Assembly (NCBI GenBank): GCA_951812755.1
Contig: OX638329.1
Location: 2,837,339-2,901,338 of the forward strand
DNA length: 64,000 nt
Direction: 5' to 3'
Origin: an uncultured Latescibacterota bacterium
GTDB lineage: Bacteria; Latescibacterota; UBA2968
The number at the start of each line of letters is the position of its first letter. Position 1 is the stretch's first letter. This document shows positions 16,260 to 25,330 of this stretch, piece after piece. The notes beneath the pieces were generated by a model. That model was not told the DNA's origin. It made no database searches and worked only from the letters and a program-made list of their open reading frames with translations. A program made the position numbers and the translations under genes.

Positions 16260-17033
16260 TTAAGCTTTGATGGCATGCGCATAAAGCTGGTCGTAATAGG
16301 GTTGACATTTTTCGAGGAGCGGGCGCAAGCGATCGGGAAAGGGTTCGGTTTTGGGGCGATAGGGTTGAAAGCCGGTGGATTTGTGGACGTTGTGATACCA
16401 GTGTTTCGCCCATATTCCGTCTTCGGGGCGAGGTCCGGCTTTCCAGGTGAGCATTGCGGGGTCAAAGGGTATGTTCAGGGCGTCGCAGAGTTTTGTGAGG
16501 ACATGTCGTGGATTTTTGAGGAGTTCCCGGGAATCGAGCACAGGGAATCCTTGACCTGTGGCGTGAAATTCATGTAAAAGCTGGGCTTGCATTTTGTAGC
16601 CTGTGTCACGCAGGGTGGGGATTTTGAGCTGGTTGACGAGCGAGGGTAGCATGTCAACAGGGTCGCGCGTGAGCAAGACATTGTGGGTGTGTTCAAAAAA
16701 GTCGCGGCTGATTTCGACGAGGTGATGAGCCATCTGTTTCATAAAGAGCACGGGGCGATCACATGGGCCGAGAATGATATCGCGAATGACGTTTTCGGCA
16801 TTGCATTCCATGGCGGTCATGACTTCGCTTGCGCCGGGATGTGCGGCAGAAGACACGCGCAGATAGTGACCGTAGAGAGGTTCGTCAATTACGCGGGTGT
16901 CTGACCGCTGCGCGAATGAGTACATGAGGGCAGTTGAGACATTGCGGGGACCGGACCACATGTTTAGACGCAGGATATCGGCAGGCATATCACATTCGGA
17001 AGACGGGGTTAAAATTGGGATCGGTGATGGCAT
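16260..17033 (-). CDS. P-loop sulfotransferase-like protein
   Basis: This is a 257-aa P-loop protein. The N-terminal loop NMWSGPRNVSTALMYSF corresponds to the PAPS-binding 5'-PSB loop region of sulfotransferases. Downstream are NVLLTRDPVDMLPSL (like the 3'-phosphate-binding Arg/Ser region) and PVLDSRELLKNPRHVLTKLCDAL. The family is often annotated only as sulfotransferase-like or HAD/branched-chain-associated, and PAPS use is not proven. The start is either 17033 or the internal ATG at 16988, which lies closer to the conserved region; neither has a strong ribosome site. It is 126 nt upstream of the aminotransferase. Confidence 0.7.
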   Translation of the reverse strand: MPSPIPILTPSSECDMPADILRLNMWSGPRNVSTALMYSFAQRSDTRVIDEPLYGHYLRVSSAAHPGASEVMTAMECNAENVIRDIILGPCDRPVLFMKQMAHHLVEISRDFFEHTHNVLLTRDPVDMLPSLVNQLKIPTLRDTGYKMQAQLLHEFHATGQGFPVLDSRELLKNPRHVLTKLCDALNIPFDPAMLTWKAGPRPEDGIWAKHWYHNVHKSTGFQPYRPKTEPFPDRLRPLLEKCQPYYDQLYAHAIKA

Positions 17034-17360: not shown

Positions 17361-18179
17361 ATGGGTTTGACCGAAGAGGAGAGATTTAGATTTGATTTGA
17401 CGGGGTTTATGGTTCGACCGGCGATTTTATCGGCGGATGAAGTGGCGGCGATTGTGGATCAGATTGATCGGATTAAGCACAATCCCGAATCTTTGCCCCC
17501 CGAACATCGCGCAGTACCAGGTGGACCGGCGAGTGTGTTGATTGATCATCCGAAGGTGATCGATGTTTTGCACGAGATTATCGGGCCTGAGATTCGGCTG
17601 GAGGCAGCCGGGTGTGTTTGGAGAAAGAAGGGGCAATCACATGGCGAATTGCATGGGGGGGCGCGGGGGCAGATAGATCCGATTTTTGGGTATCGGGTTC
17701 AAAATGGGCGCATCCATGCGGGGATGGTTCGGGTGATTTTTGAACTGTCGGGGGTGAACAAAGGGGATGGGGGCACCCATTTTATTGTGGGGAGTCACAA
17801 GGCCAATTTCCCGATGCACAAGGCGCATTTATCGTTGAAGGAGGGGAAGCGCAGCCCATTTTTGATGACGTATGAATGTCCGCCGGGCAGCGCGCTATTT
17901 TTTACGGAAAATGTGTGTCACGCAGGTCCTGTATGGCAACGGGATACGCCCCGGGTGACGATTTTGCACGCGTATTCCCATTTGGCGACGCACTGGCACC
18001 GGTTGAATATTCCACCGGTGGTACTGGAAAATTTGCCCCGCGAAAAACAGGCTTATTTCAGGCAGCCGTGGATTGCGGATTTCAAAACCCGACCGGCGAC
18101 ACATAATACTATGGCGCGATTTATTGAGGGAGATGATCCGGTTGTGGATACAACCCATCGGTTGGAAGTGGGGATTTGA
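17361..18179 (+). CDS. PhyH-family oxygenase homologue with HxG in place of HxD
   Basis: This 272-aa protein has clear PhyH architecture (FDLTGFMVRPAILSADEV, then GGTHFIVGSHKANF). The distal His is H187 (ENVCHAGPVW) and the 2OG-type Arg is R198. Where the proximal HxD is expected the sequence is LHGG (H98, G100), with no carboxylate. A second possibility, H94-G-E96, lies four residues upstream and cannot be excluded as the real pair. The window paralogue at 25623 has PHAGG at the aligned site without any acidic residue. The ATG is chosen for its GGAGG and conserved N-terminus; the in-frame upstream start reads through repeat sequence. It is the first gene of a five-gene operon ahead of a sulfatase. 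Confidence 0.85.
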   Translation: MGLTEEERFRFDLTGFMVRPAILSADEVAAIVDQIDRIKHNPESLPPEHRAVPGGPASVLIDHPKVIDVLHEIIGPEIRLEAAGCVWRKKGQSHGELHGGARGQIDPIFGYRVQNGRIHAGMVRVIFELSGVNKGDGGTHFIVGSHKANFPMHKAHLSLKEGKRSPFLMTYECPPGSALFFTENVCHAGPVWQRDTPRVTILHAYSHLATHWHRLNIPPVVLENLPREKQAYFRQPWIADFKTRPATHNTMARFIEGDDPVVDTTHRLEVGI

Positions 18180-18195: not shown

Positions 18196-19701
18196 ATGAA
18201 GGCAGTTGTGGTGATGTTTGATTCACTAAATCGACATTTGTTGTCGCCCTATGGGTGTGACTGGACGCATACGCCAAATTTTAAACGACTATCAGAGCGC
18301 GCGGTGACGTTTGACAAGTCTTATGTTTGCTCAATGCCGTGTATGCCAGCCAGGCGGGATTTTCATACGGGGCGGCCCAATTTTTTGCATCGTTCGTGGG
18401 GTCCGCTGGAGCCGTTTGACGATTCGGTACCTCGCATGTTAAAGGAGCAAGGTGTTGCGAGCCACCTGGTGAGCGATCATCAGCATTATTGGGAAGATGG
18501 CGGGTGTACGTATCACACTCAGTATAGTACCTGGCAGTTTTTCAGGGGACAAGAAGGGGATCTGTGGAAGGGGCAGGTGGCAGATCCTTCTACGGAAAAT
18601 ACGTATGGGCGAAATTCGGGTGAAGATGACCTGTCCCGGCAGGATTTGATCAATCGGCAGTTTATGCGGCGGGAAGAAGATCAACCCCAGTCCAGGACAT
18701 TTGGAGCGGGGATTGATTTTATTCGGCGGAATCACACGGAAGACAATTGGTTTTTGCAGATTGAAACGTTTGATCCTCACGAACCGTTTTTCTCTCAGCG
18801 CAAGTTTAAGGATCTATACGCCGAGCATTATCAAAATTACGATGGTCCGTTGCACGATTGGCCGAGCTATGCACCTGTGGAAGAGACGCGGGAGCAGATT
18901 GAGCATATGCGGTTTGAATATGCTTCGTTGCTGGCGATGTGCGATGCCAAGCTGGGCGATGTGCTGGATTTGATGGATGAATTGGAGATGTGGGAAGATA
19001 CGATGCTGGTGGTGTGGACCGATCACGGGTTTTTGCTGAGTGAGCACGATTGCTGGGCCAAGATGTGGATGCCTTTTTATGAGGAAGTGGCCCATACACC
19101 GTTTTTTGTATGGGATCCGCGGTGTGGTAAGAAAGGGGAACGGCGGCAGGCATTGGTGCAGCCTTCGATCGATCTGGGACCGACGTTGCTGGACTTTTTT
19201 GGTTTGGAGCCGACAGAGGATATGCTTGGCAAACCACTTGGCGATGCGGTAGATAGTGATACGGCGGTGCGGGAGGCAGCGGTTTTTGGGATGCACGGAC
19301 ATCAGGGCAATGTGACGGATGGGCGGTATGTGTATATGCGGGCATCGGCAGATCGGGAAAATCAGCCTCTGTTTGAATATACGTTGATGCCAACCCATAT
19401 CCGATCTCATTTTGCACCGGAGGAATTGGTGGGTAAGATGGAGCTTTCCGAACCGCTCAGTTTTACCAAAGGGTGTGATGTGCTGAAGATTCACACCGGT
19501 CGGGATAGCAAGGGATTTAGTCCCAGATTGTTGAGAATCCATGATTTTGGGACCTTGTTATACGATTTGGAACAGGATGCAAAACAAGAAAAGCCACTGG
19601 AGGATCCGGAGGTTGAAAAACGAATGGTGGATCTTTTGATTCAGGGGATGGAAGCATGTGATGCGCCCCCGGAACAGTATGAACGACTGGGTTTGAGGTA
19701 A
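18196..19701 (+). CDS. sulfatase (type I, Cys-type)
   Basis: This is a 501-aa alkaline-phosphatase-superfamily sulfatase. The formylglycine motif is C49-M-P-A-R, followed by RDFHTGR. The metal-site Asp is D9 (MFDSLN). Later metal residues are in VVWTDHGFLLSEHDCW. No signal peptide is seen, so action on imported substrates in the cytoplasm is likely. The real ATG follows AGGAGGAGAT; an in-frame upstream start would overlap the previous gene. It begins 16 nt after the PhyH gene. The Cys needs conversion to formylglycine by a maturase that is not encoded in the window. The substrate is unknown. Confidence 0.9.
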   Translation: MKAVVVMFDSLNRHLLSPYGCDWTHTPNFKRLSERAVTFDKSYVCSMPCMPARRDFHTGRPNFLHRSWGPLEPFDDSVPRMLKEQGVASHLVSDHQHYWEDGGCTYHTQYSTWQFFRGQEGDLWKGQVADPSTENTYGRNSGEDDLSRQDLINRQFMRREEDQPQSRTFGAGIDFIRRNHTEDNWFLQIETFDPHEPFFSQRKFKDLYAEHYQNYDGPLHDWPSYAPVEETREQIEHMRFEYASLLAMCDAKLGDVLDLMDELEMWEDTMLVVWTDHGFLLSEHDCWAKMWMPFYEEVAHTPFFVWDPRCGKKGERRQALVQPSIDLGPTLLDFFGLEPTEDMLGKPLGDAVDSDTAVREAAVFGMHGHQGNVTDGRYVYMRASADRENQPLFEYTLMPTHIRSHFAPEELVGKMELSEPLSFTKGCDVLKIHTGRDSKGFSPRLLRIHDFGTLLYDLEQDAKQEKPLEDPEVEKRMVDLLIQGMEACDAPPEQYERLGLR

Positions 19702-19734
19702 TCTACTGACTCTATTTTGAAAGGAGTTTGCCGC

Positions 19735-20571
19735 TTGAAACGCGTCGGTTTTTACGATCTCGATCTGAATAATTTTCACACAAATGTGTATTTGAGTGCG
19801 TTCAGGAATGAATTGAAGCATCGGGGATTTGAGGTGACGGGTTGTACAGGGATTCGCCAGAAATCGAGCCTTGCATGGGCAGAGGAAAATGGGGTGCCCT
19901 ATTTCTCGAATGTGCAGGCTTTGAACGATGCTATTGATTATTATCTCATTCTGGCGCCGAGAAACCCAGAGCGACATCTGGCAATGTGTGAGGCGATTTT
20001 TCCATTTGGCAAAGCGACTTATGTGGATAAGACATTTGCGCCCGATCTCGATACGGCGCAACAGATATTCGCGCTTGCAGATAAGTATCGCGTCCCGATA
20101 CAGACTTCTTCTGCACTGAGGTATAGCAATGTGCAGGATTTTGTGCGGGATGTTGGTCCTCGCAAGGTGAAACATCTGGTTGTCTGGCAGAGTGGGCGGT
20201 CTTTTGATGAATACGGTATTCACCCGACAGAAATTGTGGTGAGTTGTATGGGCACAGGGGCTAAACGGCTGATGCGCCGGAGTAAGGGGAAGTACAATCA
20301 GGTTTTGATCGATTTTACAGGCAATCGAACCGCGGTGATCAATATGAATGAAAAACACAGGACACCGCAGGCTGCTGTTGTGACGACGACGGAGGAAACG
20401 CGGTATATGGAGGTGGATCGAGCGGTGATTTTCCCGCGTTCTACCGGGGCGATTATGGATCTTTTTGAAAGTGGTAAGGCGAATATACCACGTCTGGAAA
20501 GTCTGCTGATTCGACGTATTCTGGATGTGGCGGAACAAGAACGGGCACAACGAGGTTTTGTTGACATTTAG
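19735..20571 (+). CDS. atypical Gfo/Idh/MocA-like oxidoreductase
   Basis: This 278-aa protein resembles Gfo/Idh/MocA dehydrogenases: a Rossmann-like N-terminal part, a YVDKTFAPDLDTAQQI segment at the position of the EKP motif, and a C-terminal alpha/beta part. It lacks the usual GxGxxG near the N-terminus (it has GFYDLDLNNFHTN) and the GG..xDxGxH motif. Nucleotide binding or catalysis may therefore be altered. The start is TTG, eight bases after AAGGAG. Third of the genes in this operon is a typical family member; pairing of one typical and one divergent family member suggests a heteromeric enzyme or an accessory subunit, which is only an inference. Confidence 0.65.
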   Translation: MKRVGFYDLDLNNFHTNVYLSAFRNELKHRGFEVTGCTGIRQKSSLAWAEENGVPYFSNVQALNDAIDYYLILAPRNPERHLAMCEAIFPFGKATYVDKTFAPDLDTAQQIFALADKYRVPIQTSSALRYSNVQDFVRDVGPRKVKHLVVWQSGRSFDEYGIHPTEIVVSCMGTGAKRLMRRSKGKYNQVLIDFTGNRTAVINMNEKHRTPQAAVVTTTEETRYMEVDRAVIFPRSTGAIMDLFESGKANIPRLESLLIRRILDVAEQERAQRGFVDI

Positions 20572-21581: not shown

Positions 21582-22997
21582 ATGAACGTTATTTGTGTGA
21601 TGCTGGATTCGTTGCGGGCAGATCACGTGGGTGCTTATGGCGACCGGGCAAGGACGCCGAATATGGATCGCATCGCGCGTGAGTCGCTGGTGTTTTCAAA
21701 GGCTTATTCGGGGTCGTTTCCGACCCTGCCGTGCCGACGCGATTTGTTTACGGGACGGTGGGGGCATCCGTTTAATACATGGGATAAAATGGAACAGAAT
21801 TTGCCCACGATGGCCGAGCGTTTTCGCCGCGCAGGATATACAACGGGGCTGGTTTTTGATACGCCGATGTTTATGACCCAGGGCAATTTTCTGGATCGCG
21901 GATTTGGGTCTATTTCGTGGATTCGCGGGCAGGGCGGTGAGCCGTGGATTAGCGATGAATTGCAGGAGATCAAATGGCCGGCCAGTGAGGATAAAGTAAA
22001 ATCCGGGGTGATGCGCTATCTGGCGAATCAGCGCGGGCGTTTGTTTGAATCCGATTATCTGGGTCCGCGCGTGTTTACCGAGGCGATGCACTGGCTGGAG
22101 CGAAATTATGTGAAGGATGGGTTTTTTCTGTGGATCGATTCCTGGGATCCGCACGAGCCATGGGATCCGCCGCAGTACTATGTGGATATGTACGATCCGG
22201 GTTATGAAGGCGATGAGCTTATTTATCCGTGTTATGGGTTCAGCAATTATATGACGGATGAGGAACTCAATCATGTGCGCGCGTTATACGCGGCTGAGGT
22301 GACGATGACGGATCGGTGGTTGGGGATGTTGTGGGATACGATGGATGTGTTGGGCTTAAAGGAGAATACGGTTTTTTTGCTGATGGCAGATCACGGACAC
22401 TATTTTGGAGACCACGGATTGCAGGGCAAGCCCTGGGGAGATTGGGGGCAGCTTTACGATCCCATGATTCACATTCCGTTTATGGTGTATCATCCGGATG
22501 GGATGATGGCGGGCAAGCAAGTGGATAGTCTGGTGCAGCCTGCGGATGTGTTTCCCACACTTTGCAAATTGGCGGGATTGGATGTGCCCGATGGCGTACA
22601 GGGGAAGTCATTTGCCGATGTTTTGCAGGGCAAGACGGTGAAGCATCGAGATTTTGCAATTAGCGGGCGCAATTTGAATGATAGCTGGGGCACTGTGCCT
22701 GCGACAATAACCGATGGTACATGGACGCTGGTGTATTGGCCCAATAAAGATCTGAAATACAAAGGTCCCAAACCGATTCGCACCGAGCGCTACGATTGTC
22801 GCAATATGCCCGAGCGCCGCGTGGATGAGTTGTTTTATATGCCGGAAGATCCCGGTCAGGAGAGCAATGTGATTGCCGAACAGCCCGAAGAAGCAAGGCG
22901 TTTGCACAGGGCACTTTTGGAACTGATTGAGGATACAGAGACCGATCCGGAGATTGCGAAAACGTACTTGCCCGCGCCGGGCGATCAGTATCAGTGA
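21582..22997 (+). CDS. sulfatase-fold hydrolase with Thr at the nucleophile position
   Basis: This 471-aa member of the sulfatase/alkaline-phosphatase superfamily has D9 (MLDSLRAD) and MADHGHYFGDHG as metal ligands. The nucleophile motif reads T48-L-P-C-R-R-D-L-F-T-G, aligning exactly with C49-M-P-A-R-R-D-F-H-T-G of the sulfatase three genes upstream. The formylglycine-forming Cys or Ser is thus Thr. Thr nucleophiles are known in phosphodiesterases and phosphonoacetate hydrolases of this superfamily, so phospho- or phosphonate-ester cleavage is possible. ATG follows GAGGAG, 16 nt after the Gfo/Idh gene. Last gene of the operon. No signal peptide is seen. Confidence 0.85.
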   Translation: MNVICVMLDSLRADHVGAYGDRARTPNMDRIARESLVFSKAYSGSFPTLPCRRDLFTGRWGHPFNTWDKMEQNLPTMAERFRRAGYTTGLVFDTPMFMTQGNFLDRGFGSISWIRGQGGEPWISDELQEIKWPASEDKVKSGVMRYLANQRGRLFESDYLGPRVFTEAMHWLERNYVKDGFFLWIDSWDPHEPWDPPQYYVDMYDPGYEGDELIYPCYGFSNYMTDEELNHVRALYAAEVTMTDRWLGMLWDTMDVLGLKENTVFLLMADHGHYFGDHGLQGKPWGDWGQLYDPMIHIPFMVYHPDGMMAGKQVDSLVQPADVFPTLCKLAGLDVPDGVQGKSFADVLQGKTVKHRDFAISGRNLNDSWGTVPATITDGTWTLVYWPNKDLKYKGPKPIRTERYDCRNMPERRVDELFYMPEDPGQESNVIAEQPEEARRLHRALLELIEDTETDPEIAKTYLPAPGDQYQ

Positions 22998-24022: not shown

Positions 24023-25330
24023 TTGGATCGAAGACCAAATTTTGTGGTGATTTTTTTGGATGATTCCGGATGGGCAGATTTTCGGCCATTTGGAGAGACG
24101 GCGTATCCGACGCCCAATGTGGAAAAATTGGCGGAGGGCGGGTGTTGTTATCACCAGTTTTACGTGCCCCAGGCAGTTTGTTCGGCGTCGCGGGCTTCGT
24201 TGTTGACGGGGTGTTATCCGGGCAGGCATAAGGTTTATGGCGCGATTCCGCCCCGAGCGCGAGGGTTGGATCCGAGTTTTGCCACGATTGCCGAGGTGCT
24301 CAAGCCAGCGGGTTATGCAACAGGGGTGTTTGGCAAGTGGCATATTGGCGATCATGAGGACACGCGCCCACCCGCTCGAGGTTTTGATGAGTCGTCGGGC
24401 TTGATGTATTCCAACGATATGTGGAAGTACCATCCTCAGAGCAGGCATTTTGATACGATGGAATTGCAGTTCTGGAAAAATGGGGAGATCGTTATTGACG
24501 ATGTGTCGCCAGAGCAGCAGAAGATGCTGACGACCTGGTACACGGAGCATGCGGTTGATTTTATCGGGCGTCATGCCGATGAGCCGTTTTTCCTGTATGT
24601 GCCACACAATATGCCGCATGTGCCGCTGTTTTGCAGCGATAAGTTTGACGGGAAATCGGGTGAAGGTCTGTATGCCGATGTGATGATGGAGATCGATTGG
24701 TCGGTGGGTGAGATTATGAATGCGCTTGAAGAAGCGGGCGTGGCGGATGATACGGTTGTTGTTTTTACATCGGATAATGGCCCGTGGATTTCTTATGGCA
24801 ATCACGCGGGAAGGACGCCGTATCGCGAGGCGAAGGGGACGGGTTTTGACGGGGGTACGCGTTCGGCGTGTGTGATGCACTATCCCAATGGCATTCCCGC
24901 GGGTGAGGTATCGCATCAGGCATTTTGTTCGGTGGATTTTTTGCCGACCTTTGCTAAGTTGGCGGGGGCAGATTTGCCGGATTATCAGATTGATGGGGTC
25001 GATGTTTGGGATATTGTGACGTGCCAGCCGGGTGCGGCCAATTCCCATGTGTATTATCCGGTGTCAACCGGGCGGAATTTCGATGGGGTGGTCAGTGGCG
25101 ATGGCAAGTGGAAGTTGCATTTGCCACACGATTATCGCACGCTTGTGGAAGCGGGTAATGACGGAGAGCCAGGGCAATACGAGACCGCGCATATCGAGTT
25201 ATCGCTTTTTGATATGGAAAACGATCCCTACGAGACGACCAATGTGATTGATGAGTATCCCGAGGTGGCGCAAGAACTCAAGGCATTGGCTGAAAAGCAT
25301 CGGGATATGTGGTGGGTAGAAAGAAATTAA
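24023..25330 (+). CDS. sulfatase (arylsulfatase type, Cys-type)
   Basis: This is a 435-aa type I sulfatase. The N-terminal metal site is FLDDSGWADF. The formylglycine motif is C53-S-A-S-R-A-S-L-L-T-G. GKWHIGD and VVFTSDNGPW carry further active-site Lys/His/Asp residues. No signal peptide is visible. The start is TTG with AGGGAGGA upstream; a strong promoter lies at 23923. It is followed, after a repeat-rich 292-base gap, by an HxG-type PhyH gene. The call is secure, the sulfated substrate is not known. Confidence 0.92.
   Translation: MDRRPNFVVIFLDDSGWADFRPFGETAYPTPNVEKLAEGGCCYHQFYVPQAVCSASRASLLTGCYPGRHKVYGAIPPRARGLDPSFATIAEVLKPAGYATGVFGKWHIGDHEDTRPPARGFDESSGLMYSNDMWKYHPQSRHFDTMELQFWKNGEIVIDDVSPEQQKMLTTWYTEHAVDFIGRHADEPFFLYVPHNMPHVPLFCSDKFDGKSGEGLYADVMMEIDWSVGEIMNALEEAGVADDTVVVFTSDNGPWISYGNHAGRTPYREAKGTGFDGGTRSACVMHYPNGIPAGEVSHQAFCSVDFLPTFAKLAGADLPDYQIDGVDVWDIVTCQPGAANSHVYYPVSTGRNFDGVVSGDGKWKLHLPHDYRTLVEAGNDGEPGQYETAHIELSLFDMENDPYETTNVIDEYPEVAQELKALAEKHRDMWWVERN

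Follow-up and report, generated by a model that had tools for sequence, protein, structure and literature searches.

Threonine at the nucleophile position in a large and apparently undescribed bacterial and archaeal family of sulfatase-fold proteins with both Thr and Cys members

Introduction

The formylglycine requirement of type I sulfatases is a long-standing question. It is raised anew by a gene from an uncultured Latescibacterota bacterium whose product, here called ThrS, has a sulfatase fold and a threonine at the position where formylglycine would be made. We asked whether this threonine is the nucleophile, how widely it is shared and which ester such an enzyme might cleave. The window, i.e. 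the whole stretch of DNA analysed, is 64,000 nucleotides long and all coordinates refer to it unless a locus is named.

Results

Threonine at the nucleophile position of ThrS

The features needed here are the following.

21582..22997, + strand: ThrS, sulfatase-fold protein with a Thr nucleophile, 471 aa
21723..21743, + strand: T48-L-P-C-R-R-D motif of ThrS, from translation and conservation (T48 codon ACC, 21723-21725; R52 codon, 21735-21737)
18196..19701, + strand: SulfC, Cys member of the ThrS clade, motif C49-M-P-A-R-R-D (C49 codon TGT, 18340-18342)

ThrS matched the Pfam family PF00884 (Sulfatase) at 8.5e-39, with 134.1 bits against a cut-off of 25, and SGSH_C at 5.7e-13. Its match to PF01663 (NPP / phosphonoacetate hydrolase) was weak (28.5 bits, cut-off 23), and with the NCBIfam PehA equivalog model NF045661 it scored 96.6 bits, below the cut-off of 900. 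The N-terminus is the first core strand, with no signal peptide or membrane segment ahead of it, and a start at the Met-Asn of strand 1 was found in all 19 clade proteins aligned.

Formylglycine sites read [CS]-x-P-x-R in sulfatases and C-x-P-x-R in phosphonate monoester hydrolases (PMHs); ThrS has T48 at this place. An earlier note on this DNA had aligned T48-L-P-C-R-R-D with C49-M-P-A-R-R-D of SulfC, and conservation and profile alignments to solved sulfatases agree that this is correct: in the five profile alignments listed among 109 matches, the PT-x-P-x-R stretch falls on the nucleophile motif of solved sulfatases. The same note held that threonine cannot give formylglycine, in keeping with PMC5066984, according to which its oxidation would yield a ketone. 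It also named a shifted register, with C51 or S45 in the place of T48, as one case that would overturn its view. The alignment lends this no support. T48 and R52 are invariant in the 19 clade proteins, whereas position 51 is C, T, Y, F, V, N, I or Q and position 45 is S, C, G or A, which rules out either residue as the nucleophile. A lone odd gene or a sequencing error was likewise ruled out by the conservation of the motif throughout the clade and by orthologues 65-99% identical to ThrS at 20 loci in related genomes; they have Thr wherever the motif is readable (in L080 it reads X). One orthologue (L078 / L290, genome G011) is split by an in-frame TAG and looks broken or misassembled.

Size and spread of the Thr clade

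The closest named relative among the matches listed, 99% identical to ThrS, came from a Latescibacterota assembly. Genome contigs were then scanned with one pattern made from the clade alignment, which does not touch the nucleophile. At least 586 stretches matched, at least 568 of them true relatives, and the best 80 were retained. The clade member has Thr at 79 of these 80 loci, a count biased toward Thr since the loci were ranked by similarity to ThrS; the exception, L139, has Cys, and L100 was counted as Thr on a residue that sits in a second reading-frame fragment. The bacterial sources of the best 80 loci are Latescibacterota, Chloroflexota, Armatimonadota, Planctomycetota, Bacillota, Deltaproteobacteria, Rubrobacter and Zipacnadia, and the archaeal sources are Bathyarchaeota, Brockarchaeota, Thermoprotei (including Caldivirga sp. 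MU80) and one Lokiarchaeon. No viral relatives matched the patterns used. Among the paralogues in its own genome, the eight closest (ThrS counted) all have Thr and the next 22 have Cys. In this genome (G000, a single contig of 6.53 Mb) the PF00884 genes number more than 150, and the FGE domain was matched 20 times.

In the main tree, of 135 proteins with the motif columns removed, one branch with an SH-aLRT of 100 holds 87 rows, of which 84 have Thr-x-x-R and three have Cys; on the other side stand 34 ordinary Cys sulfatases and 14 other Thr proteins. The independent count here is that of the 87-row clade, as T48 and R52 are present in the 84-row Thr group by definition. ThrS is thus part of a large bacterial and archaeal family, apparently undescribed, in which Cys members also occur.

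Archaeal Thr proteins with T-x-P-S-H or T-x-P-x-F motifs lack R52 and K283 and were set aside as a separate group. The PF00884 Thr proteins of archaea that lack the Arg and the second Lys read T-x-P-G-F (L171, L172, L182, L191), T-H-P-x-F/Y/W (L183, L193, L198) or W-T-L-P-S-H (L173, L192, L199); they make up several further Thr groups, of which some may be kin to the glycan-modifying Agl30/Agl31.

A pocket without the sulfatase lysine

The following residues of ThrS were placed by alignment.

21606..21608, + strand: D9, putative metal ligand, invariant in the clade alignment
21858..21860, + strand: D93, at the place of the catalytic Lys of ordinary sulfatases (register +/-1 residue; no Lys at 91-97)
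22137..22166, + strand: D186-S-W-D-P-H191-E192-P-W-D195, the sulfatase active-site His and clade-specific acids
22389..22394, + strand: D270-H271, putative metal ligands, by conservation
22428..22430, + strand: K283, conserved sulfatase-type Lys, by conservation

All 84 Thr rows have D9, H191, E192, D270 and H271, and nearly all have D186 (83/84), D93 (82/84), R115 (82/84) and K283 (81/84). A Lys at 91-97 was found in none of the 84, as against 64 of 69 ordinary Cys sulfatases. The partner of the sulfatase Lys is D93 or T94, the clade reading D-x-x-H where sulfatases read K-x-H. Residue 95 is Tyr in 16 of 36 rows (PMHs have Tyr at the LysA position), and a HisA-like His at 96, a sulfatase-like trait, is present in 73 of the 84 Thr rows, ThrS itself having Met. 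This Lys and the adjacent His are reported to distinguish arylsulfatases from PMHs, where the Lys is Tyr (PMC5488252). In choline sulfatase its loss is costly: with choline sulfate as the substrate, the penalty of K102L exceeds 10.7 kcal/mol, compared with 4.9 for C54S (PMC5870055).

The proline of the motif, P50, is replaced in 12 of the 84 Thr rows, against 3 of 69 ordinary Cys rows (p 0.055, kinship ignored) or 3 of 96 Cys rows when those of the clade are included (p 0.013, kinship again ignored). A P50 relaxed in this way would point in the same direction as Thr members that need no maturase.

Cys members and nucleophile swaps

The tree places SulfC within the ThrS clade, apart from ordinary sulfatases, and SulfC too is missing the Lys. 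We assembled a set of 27 Cys members from SulfC, its relatives and 14 plasmid homologues with Cys; the plasmid sample comprised 15 regions from the 40 listed of 593 matching records, the remaining one (Martelella) having Thr. They include proteins of Rhizobium, Deinococcus, Paracoccus, Streptomyces, Halocatena and Haladaptatus. Every one of the 27 has D93, H94, H96, R115, E118, D120 and E192, and none has the Lys. Members with the CMPARR motif (SulfC and those of Rhizobium, Halocatena, Deinococcus and Haladaptatus) thus resemble ThrS in D93, R115, E118, E192 and the missing Lys, and differ from it in the Cys of a complete C-x-P-x-R and in replicons that often carry an FGE.

Each of the three trees rooted with an outgroup nests the Cys members inside the Thr clade. 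In all four trees they group with three Thr rows (L033/L153/L146, T-L-P-C-R-R), apart from the other Thr proteins, with SH-aLRT values of 99-100. The two most widely sampled trees, one with and one without an outgroup, also show one Thr group nested again inside the Cys members. A single Thr/Cys split was never rejected by the AU test (p 0.198, 0.253 and 0.306, and 0.429 without outgroup), so the direction and number of swaps are not fixed. That the nucleophile was swapped within one pocket, as judged from the aligned residues, appears clear.

Maturases

In the 11 archaeal genomes with Thr members, an FGE-domain match was found in none, and a radical-SAM sulfatase maturase above cut-off in one (G044). 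Their PF00884 proteins gave 61 legible rows, 58 with Thr and three with Cys, all three in G044; the count covers all full-length and most partial matches, with 8 rows illegible and a few rows repeating a gene. The archaeal association of maturase with Cys is that of one genome in 11 (Fisher p 0.09). Of 44 further genomes (43 bacterial, one Lokiarchaeal), 29 have an FGE and 25 a radical maturase, while 10 lack both. A maturase is present in each of the two genomes (G098 and G100) whose examined loci include a Cys clade member. Counter-examples, both from the 10 genomes that lack the two maturases, are L103 and L134 (genomes G077 and G094, of uncertain completeness), where an ordinary Cys sulfatase lies beside a Thr member. 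On plasmid records, an FGE is on the same replicon in 6 of 10 with a Cys member and in 0 of 1 with a Thr member. These counts fit Thr members that have no need for a maturase; the main reservation is that assemblies may be incomplete.

FGE-family genes lie four genes off the Cys member on a Streptomyces plasmid (L245:3723-4652) and two genes off it on a Chelativorans plasmid (L242:5963-6979).

Neighbouring genes

ThrS and SulfC lie in a run of genes that also includes the following.

17361..18179, + strand: PhyH-family protein, first in the run
19717..20571, + strand: GfoA, Gfo/Idh/MocA oxidoreductase, found with SulfC and missing with it in L094 and L293
20582..21565, + strand: GfoB, Gfo/Idh/MocA oxidoreductase, constant neighbour in the nearer relatives

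GfoB is directly upstream of ThrS in the window and in all eight nearer relatives with sufficient flank (L090-L094, L097, L292, L293). SulfC and GfoA are kept in L091, L093 and L097 and absent from L094 (a closed genome of the same genus) and L293; since SulfC is missing there, the ThrS-SulfC pair is not fixed. Beside relatives at 67-70% identity (L096, L098, L288, L291) the neighbours are instead an 829-aa protein and a PhyH protein. The 829-aa gene directly follows the ThrS orthologue and is in turn followed by PhyH (L098:9496-11985, L096:4470-6956; also L287, L288 and L291). Its product is 72% identical between two lineages; it matched no Pfam family, and a search for solved relatives found none at E 1.

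Across the wider clade, the commonest Pfam families among 87 neighbour proteins are MFS, phosphodiesterase-like, ABC permease, mandelate-racemase-type, sulfatase and Gfo/Idh; no phosphonate gene is among the 25 neighbour Pfam families listed of 147. In Rhizobium and Haladaptatus a sugar ABC transporter precedes the Cys member. We infer from these neighbourhoods that imported sugar-like esters are processed in the cytoplasm.

Several other genes lie nearby. A third sulfatase-type gene (window 24023-25330), with C-S-A-S-R and the usual G-K-W-H, is an ordinary formylglycine-type sulfatase near ThrS and SulfC. A Sulfotransfer_5 gene (window 16260-17033, - strand), close to the sulfatase-type genes, is kept in L091, L093, L094 and L097. 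On haloarchaeal plasmids, at four loci, a small DUF1450 gene directly precedes the Cys member or overlaps it by 4 bases (L246:7795-8004, L284:7795-8004, L285:7780-8004, L283:7790-7996); its product is a possible dedicated partner of the Cys member.

These results change the picture of the operon. The earlier note had contrasted a Thr enzyme with a "sulfatase" and had called for tree placement of the two; they fall in one clade, not on separate branches, and share the same odd pocket without the Lys. SulfC is therefore no evidence for a separate sulfate activity, and the proposal that the operon handles a substrate with both sulfate and phosphate esters is weakened, as SulfC is a clade-mate of ThrS and is missing beside it in two relatives. 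The phospho side of that proposal remains plausible, given the missing sulfatase Lys and putative D/T/D/H ligands like those of LtaS, EptA and MCR-1; its other half, a sulfate activity brought by SulfC, is not supported. The assignment of Thr nucleophiles to phosphodiesterase and phosphonoacetate-hydrolase branches was too narrow, as LtaS, EptA and YejM also have Thr.

Discussion

We give even odds to the reading that ThrS works in the cytoplasm as a one-metal Thr hydrolase of imported sugar esters, more probably phosphoryl than sulfuryl ones. Within the alkaline phosphatase superfamily it would belong to the branch of the arylsulfatases and phosphonate monoester hydrolases. A single metal would be ligated by D9, T48, D270 and H271, and T48 itself, with no formylglycine, would attack the ester centre. 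As in sulfatases, R52, K283 and H191 would serve to hold the group or to give a proton to the departing alkoxide, and the covalent Thr intermediate would be released by in-line hydrolysis by water, for which the clade-specific acids D93, D186 and E192 are likely helpers. The position and conservation of the Thr, the fold, the lost Lys and the presence of Thr members where known maturases are lacking are observations, and the role as a hydrolase is a predicted one; the sugar-transport and sugar-oxidoreductase neighbours suggest an imported sugar or polyol ester as the substrate. The weakest step is the choice of a phosphoryl ester (phosphate mono- or diester, or phosphonate), which may hold about half the probability, sulfate being clearly the less likely substrate. 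Three points favour the phosphoryl choice: a covalent intermediate on Thr has to be hydrolysed in line, the Lys on which choline sulfate hydrolysis depends is lacking, and the other one-metal Thr enzymes of this fold described in PMC7576196 act on phosphorus. Against it stands the shared pocket of the Cys members, as formylglycine enzymes of this fold mostly cleave sulfate; the counterweight is that PMHs, formylglycine enzymes too, cleave phospho esters. The sulfatase-like His at 96 in most Thr rows and the lack of a phosphonate gene among the 25 neighbour families listed also speak against it.

ThrS could instead be a formylglycine-free sulfatase: T48 would attack a sugar sulfate at its sulfur, and direct hydrolysis of the sulfo-Thr would complete the reaction, a job that the Cys members do with formylglycine. 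We rate this as rather improbable, though it is to be taken seriously: the clade's own Cys members have the same pocket (D93, R115, E118 and E192 each in 27/27), an FGE shares the replicon in 6/10 Cys-bearing plasmids and 0/1 Thr-bearing ones, and sugar-catabolism genes adjoin clade members. A Thr sulfatase may also be chemically conceivable by analogy with choline sulfatase, where the C54S mutant turns over slowly (kcat 0.011 s-1; PMC5870055) and the unmodified and Ser-bearing forms still turn over (PMC6189696). The catalytic Lys that is indispensable to choline sulfatase (PMC5870055) is nevertheless missing from the clade, and Cys in a formylglycine enzyme alone is no proof of sulfate, as the PMHs show. 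Moreover, with no formylglycine hydrate there is no elimination route for release of the sulfo-enzyme, and sulfo-enzyme intermediates lacking that route are slow to hydrolyse. A related and doubtful possibility is that one pocket occurs in nature in a Thr and a formylglycine version, all else being unchanged, with maturase-free Thr members that act on the same ester as the Cys members and a nucleophile swapped more than once. If that ester were sulfate, the Thr members would be the first case of type I sulfatases that work without formylglycine, and would serve archaea devoid of any maturase.

Among the one-metal Thr enzymes of the superfamily, well-known ones act as transferases (PMC7576196), and T48 might likewise accept a sulfuryl or phosphoryl group from some donor and pass it on to a sugar or a lipid, in the manner of LtaS and EptA or of the Halobacterium sulfotransferases; Agl30 and Agl31 of Halobacterium salinarum, possible analogues, have the sulfatase fold and sulfate N-glycans in vivo (PMC11980604). 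We consider a transferase unlikely, as ThrS appears soluble, with no membrane anchor in its sequence, and its neighbours are importers and catabolic enzymes, not glycosyltransferases. That both the formylglycine site and the lysine are gone would also suit a pseudo-sulfatase without catalytic activity, a mere binder of sulfated or phosphorylated sugars. This is very improbable: the metal ligands, R52, H191 and K283 are near-invariant between bacterial and archaeal members that share about 35% identity, and the nucleophile was exchanged for another nucleophile and not for Ala or Gly.

With Thr and Cys/formylglycine in the same Lys-free pocket, the formylglycine question becomes testable by a one-residue swap and one substrate panel. 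Named hosts for this test are Martelella (Thr) and Rhizobium (Cys) among bacteria, and Caldivirga (Thr) and Halocatena (Cys) among archaea. In phyla rich in sulfatases, Latescibacterota among them, the annotation "sulfatase" is unsafe for many genes, and the same probably holds for their Cys partners.

Comparison with known systems

Threonine in PF00884 is already known, because the SulfAtlas authors recorded it in 30 of 59 Pfam seeds, with a T-x-N-x-E motif, and put it aside (PMC5066984). The T-x-P-x-R clade, its Lys-free pocket and its Cys members are apparently new: the open-access literature searched held no description of such a clade, and T-x-P-x-R occurred in no solved protein in the five alignments listed among 109 matches.

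The AlphaFold model of ThrS (pLDDT 85, pTM 0.89) has its best solved match in the S1_25 sulfatase 6hr5 (Z 36.7, rmsd 2.5 over 349 residues), followed by SpAS2 4upl (Z 34.9, rmsd 2.9 over 396), the PMHs 4uph (Z 32.5, rmsd 3.3 over 397) and 9gve (Z 31.8), and YejM 6vat (Z 31.7, rmsd 2.9, 17% identity over 319). With the formylglycine sulfatases of SulfAtlas S1 (S1_25 6hr5, SpAS2, choline sulfatase) ThrS shares the fold, R52, H191, K283 and D9/D270/H271; its clade differs in having Thr for Cys/Ser, in missing the catalytic Lys of K-x-H and in the added conserved D93, R115-G-Q-E, D186 and E192. The PMH / phosphodiesterases (RlPMH 2vqr, 4uph) resemble it in fold, in the His as fourth ligand and in the absence of LysA, but have a Cys-derived formylglycine and a Tyr where the ThrS clade has Asp (Thr/His in the other register). 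LtaS, EptA, MCR-1 and YejM share the Thr nucleophile and the PF00884-type fold. The D or E/T/D/H metal set of LtaS, EptA and MCR-1 appears to be matched by the aligned residues of the ThrS clade, while the fourth ligand of YejM departs from it (PMC7576196). LtaS, EptA, MCR-1 and YejM are membrane proteins, whereas ThrS begins at strand 1 with no anchor, and LtaS-like Pfam members have a TxNxE-type motif in contrast to the TxPxR of the clade (PMC5066984). The ThrS clade is nearer to the sulfatases than to LtaS/EptA/YejM or to the phosphodiesterase and phosphonoacetate-hydrolase branches.
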